Part shown: in pieces, positions 6,035-52,661 of the stretch
Layout: each line of letters opens with the position of its first letter
Numbering within the stretch: position 1 is the first letter of the stretch
Assembly: GCF_012027645.1 (NCBI RefSeq)
Contig: NZ_SNUU01000001.1
Coordinates: 372,001 to 436,000 of the forward strand
Direction of reading: 5' to 3'
DNA length: 64,000 nt
Origin: Thermococcus sp. 18S1
GTDB lineage: Archaea > Methanobacteriota_B > Thermococci > Thermococcales > Thermococcaceae
The notes under the pieces: generated by a model
Told to the model about the DNA's origin: nothing
Database searches by the model: none
What the model saw: only the letters and a program-made list of their open reading frames with translations
Made by a program: the position numbers and the translations under genes

Positions 6035-6943
6035 ATGATAGAGGCTGCTCCGCTTATAGGTTTAACTCTAACGCTCATCCTCACCCCTTACCTCGCGGGG
6101 AGATTGAAGCGAGCGGGTATCATCGGAAGGGACATACACAAGCTCGACCGGCCAGAGGTTGCCGAGATGGGTGGACTGGCACTCCTCGCTGCCATCCCCC
6201 TGGCGCTGGCACCGTCCATCGATCCCGAAACCGCCAGGGCTCTCCTTGTATTCCTGCTCTTTGGAGTCGTTGGAATCGTGGACGACCTGACGGCACTCAA
6301 ACAGTCCCACAAGGTGGTCCTCTCCCTCCTGGTCGCGGTTCCGACTGCGTTCTTCGGGGTATCTTCGCGGATAGACATCCTCGGCCATACCATCGATCTC
6401 GGAATCCTCTACCCAGTCTTCGCGGTGCTTTTCGTTACGGGCTCGGCAAACCTGGTGAACCTGCTGGCAGGCTTCAACGGCCTTGAAATTGGAACCTCCG
6501 CCGTGGCCCTGGGCTTTCTGGCCGTGGTGACCGACGGGCCGGCAAGGGGTCTGGCGCTGGCGGGACTCGGCGCCGCTCTGGGGTTCCTGTGGTGGAACCG
6601 CTACCCCGCGAGGGTCTTTCCCGGCGATACTGGAACGCTGAGCATGGGCGCGCTGATTGGGCTCGTCGGAATACTCGGAAAGGTCGAACTTTACGCAGCG
6701 ATACTCCTCGTCCCGCACTTTCTGGACTTCGTGATAAAGGCTGTTGGGGTTAGGTTCGGGGTCAGGAAACACGGAAGAACGGAAGTACTGCCCGACGGGA
6801 CGCTGAAAGCACCGCCGTACCCCAGCTTCCTGGGAACGATAATGAGAACGGTAAAGGTGAACGAACCGAGGCTCGTCGCGATAGTCTGGGGGATAGAGTT
6901 CATTCTTGGGCTTCTGGTTCTTGCTCTTCATCTATCACTTTGA
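6035..6943 (+). CDS. aglH: Dolichyl-phosphate N-acetylglucosamine-1-phosphate transferase (MraY/WecA/AglH family)
   Basis: The 302-residue polytopic enzyme (about 10 membrane segments) transfers a sugar-1-phosphate from a UDP-sugar to dolichyl phosphate, the first step of the lipid-linked oligosaccharide used in N-glycosylation. The family motifs are LDRP (37-40) with MGG (45-47), VDD (82-84), the NLLAGFNGLE loop and FPGDTG. The start is ATG 6035 with GGGTG upstream; an upstream in-frame ATG would add an unrelated arginine-rich stretch. It is divergent from the HAD-GT2 gene. Its last 44 nt overlap the convergent cas6. Confidence 0.88.
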   Translation: MIEAAPLIGLTLTLILTPYLAGRLKRAGIIGRDIHKLDRPEVAEMGGLALLAAIPLALAPSIDPETARALLVFLLFGVVGIVDDLTALKQSHKVVLSLLVAVPTAFFGVSSRIDILGHTIDLGILYPVFAVLFVTGSANLVNLLAGFNGLEIGTSAVALGFLAVVTDGPARGLALAGLGAALGFLWWNRYPARVFPGDTGTLSMGALIGLVGILGKVELYAAILLVPHFLDFVIKAVGVRFGVRKHGRTEVLPDGTLKAPPYPSFLGTIMRTVKVNEPRLVAIVWGIEFILGLLVLALHLSL

Positions 6944-7649
6944 CCATTCCGAAGCCGTACCTCGTTTTTTCCCCAAAACCGTTCTCATAGCCGAAGCGGG
7001 CGATCTCGGAGGAGCCGGTGTACCGGAATATCATGAGCGAGCCGCGGTAGTAGGTGTCCTTAACGAGTATCCTGACGGGCTTGAACTTGACAACGTCTAT
7101 TGAGAAGTCCCTCTCCTCGGGCATCTCCCCCATTATGGCAGAATAGCGCATGAGCATTACCTTGCGGAGCTTGTCGAAGAAGCTCTCCTCGTTGGGGTAG
7201 AGATCCCATATCTTCATCCTGTTGCCGCTCAGCTTAACCGTCCTGACCATTATCGGACTCAGCGTCGAAAACAGGGCACTCTCCTTTATCCGGGGTTCCT
7301 TGAGAACCTTTATGTCATCCGCGATGAAGGTGGCGTCCCCTATCTGCAGAACGGGGCTGTCTATAAAGCCCTCAACGACTGCCTTTATCAGCTCGTTCGA
7401 GGAGGACGAGATGTATAGCGAGACGTCGTCCGAGAGAACCCTAATGCCCCTGTCGGGGATGAGCTCGCGCTTCCGCACCATTATGCGGGAGAACGTGAAG
7501 TAGTCAACGTGACTAACTTCAGCTTCCCTGGCTATTTCAGGGGAAACTATGGCCATTTTGGCCACTAACTGAGTGTAAACGTCATAATTGTAGTTAAACG
7601 GCAGAATCGTGCCCTCCTCTGCGGGCCTGAACTTTATCTCCACCCTCAT
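6900..7649 (-). CDS. cas6: Cas6-family CRISPR RNA-binding/processing protein, solitary
   Basis: This 249-residue RAMP protein has the Cas6 C-terminal glycine-rich loop (GFGEKTRYGFGMV, near residue 225) and a tandem ferredoxin-like pattern. Cas6 cuts CRISPR transcripts in the repeat. There are no other cas genes and no repeat-spacer array anywhere in the window. Compared from memory with the P. furiosus enzyme, the N-terminal Tyr/His/Lys catalytic triad is not evident: the tyrosine position reads A/K and the lysine position near YFTFS reads D. A non-catalytic RNA-binding form is therefore possible. ATG 7649 has a GGGGTGGG element upstream. Confidence 0.82.
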   Translation of the reverse strand: MRVEIKFRPAEEGTILPFNYNYDVYTQLVAKMAIVSPEIAREAEVSHVDYFTFSRIMVRKRELIPDRGIRVLSDDVSLYISSSSNELIKAVVEGFIDSPVLQIGDATFIADDIKVLKEPRIKESALFSTLSPIMVRTVKLSGNRMKIWDLYPNEESFFDKLRKVMLMRYSAIMGEMPEERDFSIDVVKFKPVRILVKDTYYRGSLMIFRYTGSSEIARFGYENGFGEKTRYGFGMVKVIDEEQEPEAQE

Positions 7650-7865: not shown

Positions 7866-9062
7866 ATGAGCGTTGAAAACGTCGATATCAAACCAACGGA
7901 CGAGTACGATGATTACGTCATATATCTGAAGAGACGCATAAGGCAGCTTGAGCTCCAGGTGAGAACCCTGGAAGCCGACAAGGAGAGACTGGAGAGAGAG
8001 CTTTCCCGCCTGAGAATGGAGATGTCCAGGCTCAGACAGCCCCCTGCCTTCGCGGGGACGCTTCTCGAACTGCTCGACGAGGACAGGGCAATAGTCCAGA
8101 ACTTCAACGGCCCGCGCTTTGTCGTCAGGATAGCGCCATGGATCGAGCGCGAGAACCTCAAGCCGGGTTCTAGGGTGGCCCTCGACCAGAGAACGATGGC
8201 CGTCGTGGAGGTCCTCCCCAGCGAGAAGGACCCGAGCGTCCTCGGATTCGAGGTCATCGAGAGACCGACCGTCAGTTACAAGGACATCGGCGGCCTGGAG
8301 AAACAGCTTCAGGAACTCAGGGAGGCAATAGAGCTTCCGCTCAGGCACCCGGAGCTCTTCGAGAAGGTCGGAATCGAGCCGCCCAAGGGGGTTCTCCTCT
8401 ACGGTCCGCCCGGTTGCGGAAAGACCCTCATGGCCAAGGCCCTGGCCCACGAGGCCAATGCAACATTCATCCGCGTCGTTGGCAGCGAACTCGTGAGAAA
8501 GTTCATAGGAGAGGGCGCCAGACTCGTCCACGAGCTGTTTGAGCTCGCCAAGGAAAAGGCCCCGACCATAATCTTCATAGACGAGATCGACGCAATAGGA
8601 GCGAAGAGGATGGACGAAACCACGGGCGGCGAGAGGGAGGTCAACAGAACCCTCATGCAGCTCCTGGCGGAGATGGACGGCTTCGACCCGAGGGGCAACG
8701 TCAAGATAATCGCCGCCACCAACAGGCCGGACATCCTCGATCCAGCTCTGCTGAGACCCGGCAGGTTCGACAGACTCATAGAGGTCCCGCTCCCAGACTT
8801 CCGCGGCAGGCTGGAGATAATCAAGGTGCACACGAGGAAGATGAACCTCAGGGACGTCGACCTGCGCGTAATCGCGGAGATGACCGAGGGAGCCAGCGGT
8901 GCGGACCTCAAGGCCATAGCGACCGAGGCAGGAATGTTCGCCATAAGGGCGAGGCGCGAGTACGTCACCCAGGAGGACTTCATGAAGGCCATCGAGAAGG
9001 TCTTCGGCGCGGAGCAGAGGCTCGCCCAGCAGATAGCGATGCACGAAGTCATGTACGGCTGA
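7866..9062 (+). CDS. pan: Proteasome-activating nucleotidase (PAN)
   Basis: The 398-residue AAA+ ATPase forms the hexameric unfoldase that feeds the 20S proteasome. An N-terminal coiled coil (about residues 15-58) is followed by an OB-like domain (60-130) and the AAA domain with Walker A GPPGCGKT (180-187), Walker B IIFIDEID (235-242) and arginine-finger region RPGRFDR. The C-terminus ends in MYG, an HbYX-type motif that docks into the proteasome alpha ring. GAGGTGA precedes ATG 7866. Its 3' end overlaps the convergent MFS gene by 14 nt. The beta subunit lies at 45 kb. Confidence 0.96.
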
Positions 9063-22102: not shown

Positions 22103-22128
22103 TATCAAATGCCCAGCCCCCCTTTCAG

Positions 22129-25155
<3,027 letters not shown>

Positions 25156-25181
25156 CCTACTCAGGGGGCTGGGCATTTTTT

Positions 25182-25207
25182 GGGTCAATCGGCCTGTGCA
25201 CGGTCCT
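25182..25207 (-). other. 5' arm of pre-23S rRNA processing stem
   Basis: It pairs with 22078-22102; see that entry. It lies between tRNA-Ala and the mature 23S 5' end. Confidence 0.8.
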
Positions 25208-25276
25208 CATCGTGATCCCTGTTCGGGATCTCGGACCCTTCCACCCCGAGCCGGGCTCGGGATGTGCATCTCTTCG

Positions 25277-25353
25277 TGGTGGACCGGCCGGGATTCGAAC
25301 CCGGGGCCTTCGGCTTGCAAAGCCGACGCTCTCCCAGGCTGAGCTACCGGCCC
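25277..25353 (-). tRNA. tRNA-Ala (UGC) in the rRNA spacer
   Basis: On the minus strand the acceptor stem GGGCCGG pairs with CCGGUCC, the discriminator is A, and CCA is encoded at 25279-25277. The anticodon stem UCGGC/GCCGA holds loop UUUGCAA, giving anticodon UGC. A tRNA-Ala in the 16S-23S spacer is standard for euryarchaea. Confidence 0.97.
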
Positions 25354-25359
25354 ACGGAT

Positions 25360-25396
25360 GGCAGGCCCAACACCTCTTAAACCCCCCGGACGGATT
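25360..25396 (-). other. 3' arm of pre-16S rRNA processing stem
   Basis: GGCAGGCCCAACACCT and CCGGACGGATT on the plus strand are complementary to two blocks at 26939-26977 upstream of 16S. The paired blocks with unequal internal loops are a bulge-helix-bulge processing stem. Confidence 0.78.
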
Positions 25397-25406
25397 TTCC
25401 GGCGAT

Positions 25407-26892
<1,486 letters not shown>

Positions 26893-27541
26893 TGAGCAAG
26901 GAGTACGGCCGGTGGGACTTCCCTCAAGGGGAAGTACCAATATCCGTCCGGGGTTTGGTCGAGGTGTTGGGCCTGCCTTACCCCCGAGGGGTCCGCCTTT
27001 CGGCGTTTCCTCGGGAGCGCACATTGCTGTGACCCGAGCTGGAGGGCGGGGTTCATCGTGGGTGCTTTGCACCCTGTCCCCCCGACGCCGCCGTCTTGGC
27101 GCTCGGGTTTTGTCGCGCCCTGTTCGGGCGCTCCATCCAATAGGGGGGAACCCCACCGATACAAAATTTTTGCAAAACCCCTCCCAGGGCATATTTTTAA
27201 AAAAGAAGCTGTCAAAAAGCACCAATAAAATGCACAATTTTAGACATAAAAATGACAAAAAATTTTTGCATGGTAAAAGGGAGGAAAAGGATGAGAAGCA
27301 GAAAACCCGAGACCACCAAAGCAAGACACCCATGTTGAGCCCACCATCATGCCCAACCCAAGACTCCCTTAGCCACCCACCCCACGTAGCACGGTAGGAT
27401 TACCAAGACAACACATATCGGGAGCCCCCCTCCACAAAGGGAATCACGAACCCATGCCATCAACCACAAGGAAGGAATCACCATAAGAAGCCAGCTCCAA
27501 AAACGTCAGAAAGGTTAAGAGAGTGGCGAAGGGAAAACCCC
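26893..27541 (-). other. Leader and upstream region of the rRNA operon; no protein gene
   Basis: On the minus strand the proximal part (26893-27170) is the transcribed leader with the 5' arm of the pre-16S stem at 26939-26977. The middle (27183-27260) is AT-rich and contains the promoter. The distal 280 nt up to the prs stop have a strong strand bias, C/A-rich on plus and G/T-rich on minus, with no credible start, family match or RNA fold that I can recognise. It may be untranslated 3' sequence of prs read from the other side or promoter-upstream DNA. Confidence 0.6.
27183..27205 (-). promoter_or_regulatory. Putative rRNA operon promoter
   Basis: On the minus strand the sequence CTTTTTTAAAAATATGCCC gives an A/T-rich BRE/TATA. 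It lies about 300 nt before 16S, upstream of the processing stem, which is the correct position for the rRNA promoter. Confidence 0.5.
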
Positions 27542-51925: not shown

Positions 51926-51994
51926 ACCCCCTTTTCACGGCGTTTCTAAGAAGTTGTGATGCAGCTACGTCCCCCTTCCAGTATTATACCCTCC

Positions 51995-52067
51995 GGGAGG
52001 AGGGAAATGTATAAATACCCGGAGGGAGGAGGGAAATGTATAAATACCCGGAGGGAGGAGGGAAATG
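51995..52067 (+). repeat. 29-bp tandem promoter/ribosome-binding-site repeat
   Basis: Two complete 29-nt copies (51995-52023 and 52024-52052) and a third partial copy of 15 nt (52053-52067). Each full copy contains GGAGGAGGGAAATG (a Shine-Dalgarno plus ATG) followed by TATAAATACCCGGA (a TATA box). The partial copy supplies the real start codon at 52065. TATA of copy 2 (52038-52045) would start transcription close to that ATG; TATA of copy 1 (52009-52016) would give a leader with a strong ribosome-binding site. Confidence 0.85.
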
Positions 52068-52661
52068 GGCTACTCTGTGGATAGGCTTGAGAAGAAGCTA
52101 AAAGGAGATTACGATAAGGGCTTGTGGATAACCTTTTTTATTGGCTCCTTAGCCCTTGGATTAGCGACTCCCTGGGTTGCGTTTGATTTGGACAACTCTT
52201 CAGGAGGGGTTATCAGTTTTATTGCAGTAATGGCTAGTATGGCATTTATCCCTCTGGGGATTATTTCAGTCTTGGCCGCAATATATGAAGTTCAAGCAGA
52301 CGCCCAAGAGTTCGTGGAGGCTTATAAAAGAGACTATCCCAAGGAACCGGAAATTGATCTCCTTGAATCAGGATACAAAAAGGCCCACGAGTATCAGAAC
52401 AAAGCATTCAAAGATGCCCTAACTGCATGGCTTGGTCTTGGAGTTTACGTCGGGCTCGTAGAGTTGGCGCTTTTAGTCGACAACGTGGTCGTTAAGAATT
52501 GGTCGTACCTTTGGGCTGTACTGGGTATATGCTCGATAGCCTCTTTTATCGGGTTTGTTTTAACGATAATCTCCTACCTCCGCAAGCGCTCCATAGAGAA
52601 GGCCCTCTTCGCCATTCAGCTCAAAAAGAGCGATAAAGCAGAAATCTCGATCAAGATTTGA
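52065..52661 (+). CDS. Orphan membrane protein, 198 aa
   Basis: No family recognised. Four membrane helices are predicted (about residues 20-40, 48-70, 120-140 and 150-170), with a charged cytosolic helix between the second and third (QADAQEFVEAYKRDYPKEPE). Base composition is more AT-rich and codon choice (ATA, TTA, GAT, AAA) less GC-biased than in neighbours, which points to recent acquisition. Transcription is from a duplicated promoter. The 3' end overlaps the convergent PIN toxin gene by 11 nt. Confidence 0.72.
   Translation: MGYSVDRLEKKLKGDYDKGLWITFFIGSLALGLATPWVAFDLDNSSGGVISFIAVMASMAFIPLGIISVLAAIYEVQADAQEFVEAYKRDYPKEPEIDLLESGYKKAHEYQNKAFKDALTAWLGLGVYVGLVELALLVDNVVVKNWSYLWAVLGICSIASFIGFVLTIISYLRKRSIEKALFAIQLKKSDKAEISIKI

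Follow-up and report, generated by a model that had tools for sequence, protein, structure and literature searches.

The gene studied here lies on the minus strand of the window, the 64-kb stretch of DNA that was analysed (C1:372001-436000), at C1:378903 of the contig, and encodes a Cas6 of an already known kind, Cas6nc. The features of the locus, in window coordinates, are:

6900..7649, minus strand: Cas6nc open reading frame, 249 aa, with N- and C-terminal Cas6 Pfam domains and no catalytic triad
6939..6980, minus strand: glycine-rich loop GFGEKTRYGFGMVK, residues 224-237, largely invariant among orthologues
7563..7565, minus strand: codon of V29, in the column of PF1131 Tyr31; Leu, Val, Ile or Met in 87/87 orthologues
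7518..7520, minus strand: codon of E44, in the column of PF1131 His46; His in 0/87 orthologues
7503..7505, minus strand: codon of D49, in the column of PF1131 Lys52; Asp in 79/87 and Gly in 8/87 orthologues
6035..6943, plus strand: glycosyltransferase-4 family gene (PF00953), tail-to-tail with the Cas6nc gene
7866..9062, plus strand: proteasome-activating AAA ATPase (PAN-like) gene, divergent from the Cas6nc gene

The Cas6nc frame opens with the ATG at 7649 and closes with the stop at 6900. Its 3' end overlaps that of the PF00953 gene at 6900-6943; the latter frame is listed from 5924, and its likely start is the ATG at 6035. The Cas6nc product is matched by the Pfam families Cas_Cas6_C (E 1.3e-28) and Cas6_I-A (E 6.2e-16) and scores 149.6 bits against NCBIfam TIGR01877 (cas_cas6), above the curated cut-off of 58.65. 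Together with the C-terminal glycine-rich loop, this identifies it as a member of the Cas6 family (TIGR01877/PF01881).

The sequence-only reading had described a solitary Cas6 with an intact glycine-rich loop and without an evident catalytic triad, in 64 kb free of CRISPR arrays and other cas genes. Indeed, the loop is intact, and the window contains no match to the strain's own CRISPR repeat with up to three mismatches allowed; the sole direct repeat of at least 20 nt within 120 bases is a spacer-less 3 x 29 nt tandem and no CRISPR array. Among the Cas1, TIGR01877, RAMP and DevR matches listed for the genome, the Cas6nc gene alone falls inside the window. Thus, no linkage to an array or to genes of these cas families was found that would make it part of a CRISPR-Cas locus. 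'Solitary' is correct for the locus and incorrect for the genome, which has arrays (152 repeat matches). In addition to the Cas6nc gene, the genome carries three Cas6 genes some 0.9-1.35 Mb away, which lie at C1:1296631, 1304138 and 1729007. The tandem, at 51986-52072, consists of three copies of a 29-nt purine-rich unit and runs into the start of an open reading frame at 52065-52661. Elsewhere in the window, a 16S-tRNA-23S rRNA operon occupies 22128-27131 on the minus strand, with a Pab19 H/ACA RNA upstream.

When compared with solved structures using phmmer, the window protein gave E-values of 5.9e-98 for 3UFC, 3.8e-92 for PH0350 (3QJJ/3QJP), 1.5e-39 for 5YI6 and ~3e-28 for PF1131. PH0350 is presumably the protein referred to as PhCas6nc, the structure of which has reportedly been known since about 2012, and 5YI6 we take to be M. 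maripaludis Cas6b. PhCas6nc (PH0350; 3QJJ, 3QJL, 3QJP) and PfuCas6nc (3UFC) are full-length orthologues of the window protein and display the same triad loss, and the suspected likeness to the non-catalytic Cas6 of P. horikoshii is therefore one of orthology. In PMC3652601, 3UFC is named the non-catalytic P. furiosus Cas6. Similarly, a review (PMC3727216) refers to PhCas6nc as an inactive P. horikoshii homologue; its reported ligand is single-stranded CRISPR repeat RNA. According to the review, PfuCas6 and PhCas6nc both use the inter-domain cleft to bind unstructured repeat RNA, mainly by the first ~10 nt of the RNA. PF1131 (3PKM, 3I4H) has the Cas6 family and the glycine-rich loop in common with the window protein, but it belongs to a separate clade and carries Tyr31/His46/Lys52, whereas the window protein lacks this triad.

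The alignment behind the triad assignment comprised 87 of the 89 intact orthologues (all except G070 and G085), 22 other Thermococcaceae Cas6 proteins and PF1131, the triad of which is Tyr31, His46 and Lys52. The number His46 follows PMC3652601, and PMC3727216 is the source for the Tyr/His/Lys triad itself. Among the orthologues, the Tyr31 column is occupied by Leu (45), Val (21), Ile (19) or Met (2), the His46 column by Glu (61), Gln (12), Ser (8), Lys (3), Asp (2) or Arg (1), and the Lys52 column by Asp or Gly in the proportions listed above. Not one of the 87 has the triad of PF1131-type catalytic Cas6 proteins, and what had been judged by eye for a single gene holds for all of them; orthology to PH0350 and 3UFC combined with triad loss makes the window protein one of the PhCas6nc type. 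By contrast, Tyr is present in 21, His in 22 and Lys in 21 of the 22 thermococcal paralogues, with the full triad in 21/22. The lone exception, at both Tyr and Lys, is the strain's own Cas6 at C1:1296631. This gene (C1:1296631-1297380; L003:1471-2274) keeps the His, has Ile in the Tyr and Lys columns, adjoins a Cas4-like open reading frame (judged by eye) and lies near Cas1.

In a tree of 55 Cas6 sequences, 25 of them nc members, with supports taken from bipartitions on the unrooted tree, the nc clade is monophyletic (bootstrap 100). It groups with the Cas6 of genome G114 (86) and then with 5YI6 (77), and the catalytic thermococcal clade is supported at 95. These two type I-B-like proteins are the nearest non-thermococcal relatives of the nc clade in the tree and possess the triad that the window protein lacks. 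Tyr, His and Lys are all present in the aligned outgroup Cas6 proteins (G114, Methanofastidiosia, Bacteroidia, the III-A type of G019 and 5YI6) and in PF1131. Because the outgroup proteins carry the triad and the nc clade is monophyletic, its loss is derived. Judging from these sequences, Cas6nc most likely descends from an ancestor similar to a type I-B Cas6; the G114 gene adjoins Cas7/Cst2 and a Cas5-like gene. Within the nc clade, 22 positions carry a basic residue (Lys/Arg) in 97% or more of the orthologues. At 14 positions, the residue fixed in the nc clade differs from that of the catalytic clade. The mean net charge is +0.5, compared with +11 in the catalytic paralogues; the window protein, at -4, is more acidic than its counterparts in eight genomes of group g3 (+2 to +4), and the differences seen from PhCas6nc and PfuCas6nc are ones of sequence only. 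Over 190 genome pairs, the median dN ratio of nc to catalytic Cas6 is 1.06, nc is the more alike of the two in 36% of pairs, and identity averages 0.662 in nc as against 0.682 in catalytic Cas6. Thus, Cas6nc evolves no slower than catalytic Cas6.

An intact orthologue is found in 89 out of 94 Thermococcaceae genomes; of the 74 that are near-complete, 72 have it. In the five genomes without an intact copy, the gene is split (G014) or was not found (G046, shown as 90% complete, and G041, G088 and G091, 53-80% complete). In a search of 115 genomes of the phylum, none of the matches listed outside Thermococcaceae exceeded 200 bits, whereas intact orthologues score above 400. The surroundings of the gene are conserved as well. 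Across 78 loci, the PF00953 gene lies tail-to-tail in 67, representing all six genera and including all eight loci fetched from g3; array coordinates in PMC3124441 match genome G064, which places P. abyssi in g3. The PAN-like gene is divergent in 46 of the 78 loci and on the same strand in 8 more. The PF00953 gene is missing from the locus in 11/78 (in G033 the contig ends upstream). One Thermococcus sub-lineage (L036, L037, L064-L069, L098 and L105) has the locus without this neighbour, and in 8 of its 10 loci the PAN-like gene comes next on the same strand. In G014 (L205, L206), the orthologue is in two pieces ~23 kb apart and in opposite orientation, apparently through a single ~23-kb inversion that has one of its breakpoints within the gene. 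This one-contig genome has 100 repeat matches, two intact other Cas6 genes and no Cas1, and is a natural knockout of the Cas6nc gene with CRISPR repeats retained. As G014 carries it in pieces and no copy was found in G046, the Cas6nc gene is not indispensable.

Matches to one repeat type, counted with the 5-base-gap form of the repeat pattern, are present in 89/94 Thermococcaceae genomes; a pattern with a 6-base gap found stray or variant copies only and was discarded. Cas1 is absent from 14 of the 74 near-complete genomes; its absence is reported for T. onnurineus NA1 (PMC4158269). Five of the 14 (G008, G027, G045, G079 and G090, four of them drafts) have no second Cas6 as judged by TIGR01877, their sole match to this model being Cas6nc, and they gave no matches to PF10040, RAMPs or DevR-Cas7 either. 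The PF10040, RAMP and DevR searches covered 16 genomes each, picked for few signs of CRISPR together with the strain's own genome, and 'no other cas matches' refers here to Cas1, TIGR01877, PF10040, RAMPs and DevR only. BLAST or the nc profile proved unsafe for showing that no other Cas6 is present, as they overlooked the III-A-type Cas6 of G019 (L202:17261-17983), which TIGR01877 detects; G019 is outside the CRISPR-less set. So are G003 and G044, in which Cas6nc is the only TIGR01877 Cas6 and Cas1 is present. G037, which has RAMP matches and no Cas1, contains a relic of a second Cas6 with in-frame stops, and its Cas6nc gene is intact.

In all five CRISPR-less genomes the Cas6nc gene is intact. 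In the order G008, G027, G045, G079 and G090, they contain 6, 1 (degenerate), 11, 0 and 4 repeat matches, and their terminal-branch dN/dS values, obtained from automatic triplets, are 0.119, 0.067, 0.051, 0.000 and 0.018. The background, 69 terminal branches each having 8 or more synonymous changes, has a median of 0.067 and an interquartile range of 0.036-0.138. Neutrality over the whole branch predicts 75, 150, 138, 34 and 54 nonsynonymous changes; 9, 10, 7, 0 and 1 were observed, limiting the neutral share of the branch to at most 0.151, 0.049, 0.030, 0.021 and 0.021 (95% upper bounds). Hand-chosen triplets gave 0.119, 0.091-0.093, 0.053, 0.033 and 0.000. In these five genomes, which gave no other cas matches, purifying selection thus acts on the Cas6nc gene. 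CRISPR loss may have been recent, for which the surviving repeats in G008, G045 and G090 leave room; that all five losses date from the final few percent of their branches is unlikely, unless the surviving CRISPR-less lineages are all very young.

What such a protein might do can be weighed against this distribution. That the gene is a relic in decay and no longer has a function is hardly credible: the split copy of G014 and the absence from G046 are what decay would produce, but intact copies in nearly all genomes and the low background dN/dS contradict this reading for the family overall. It is also improbable that the protein has kept RNase activity through a rearrangement of its active site. 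Triad loss by itself is no proof of inactivity by analogy with SsoCas6 (Sso1437), which likewise lacks the canonical His and is reported to cut RNA (PMC3652601). Moreover, a nearby His is common (H47 in the window protein; His in 62/87 and Tyr in 12/87 orthologues). However, the H47 position is not conserved, with neither residue in 13/87, the whole triad has given way to hydrophobic and, for the most part, acidic residues, and the literature cited above terms PH0350 and 3UFC inactive or non-catalytic.

A role as a CRISPR accessory is a more substantial possibility, though one we would not back at even chances. Cas6nc would then bind the 5' part of the repeat, which is what remains as the 3' end of the crRNA after the cut by a catalytic Cas6, and by protecting it or competing for it would tune crRNA maturation from distant arrays. 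The repeat-RNA binding described for PhCas6nc agrees with this, and the ligand is on offer in most hosts, this strain included. On the other hand, selection persists in the five genomes without other cas matches, even where no repeat (G079) or a single degenerate one (G027) is left, the gene is broken in the repeat-rich G014 with its two intact Cas6 genes, and the same non-cas neighbours recur in most loci. The retention and the breakage argue against a role tied solely to CRISPR. The 'helper to a distant array' of the sequence-only reading is accordingly possible in a genome that has arrays and disfavoured as the protein's only task.

Over the accessory role we favour a non-cutting binder of single-stranded RNA whose role does not need CRISPR, a reading for which the sequences give about an even chance. 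On this proposal, a Cas6 would have lost its cutting triad before the Thermococcaceae radiated, and its gene would have become fixed among housekeeping genes, away from any CRISPR locus. The protein most likely uses the cleft between its two RRM-like domains to grip unstructured RNA, which it leaves uncut; PH0350 suggests the binding, and the replaced residues and the label in the literature suggest the absence of cutting. The gene has probably been retained for a cellular RNA-binding job without a CRISPR requirement, with CRISPR-repeat binding perhaps inherited or a second activity. Orthology, derived triad loss, the conserved locus and purifying selection without other cas matches are direct observations behind this proposal; that the window protein binds RNA, what its target is and which cellular role it has we infer. 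The near-zero net charge does not favour generic RNA binding. That Cas6nc is an exapted Cas protein, kept vertically throughout the lineage as a core-genome RNA binder of Thermococcaceae with a CRISPR-independent cellular target, we put a little short of even.

In the literature within the range of our search, which left most subscription papers aside and gives a weak negative at best, PhCas6nc is mentioned only as an inactive homologue, and we found no account of the distribution or role of Cas6nc. The near-universality of the gene, its conserved non-CRISPR locus and its retention without other cas matches are the interesting part of the results and favour, rather than prove, a CRISPR-independent role. 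With them, what had been a curiosity becomes a question open to experiment, namely, what job a dead CRISPR nuclease does in the cell. As genetic tools exist for both T. kodakarensis and P. furiosus, the role of Cas6nc is within experimental reach. If the proposal is true, a CRISPR RNA-processing enzyme would have been repurposed as a housekeeping RNA binder.
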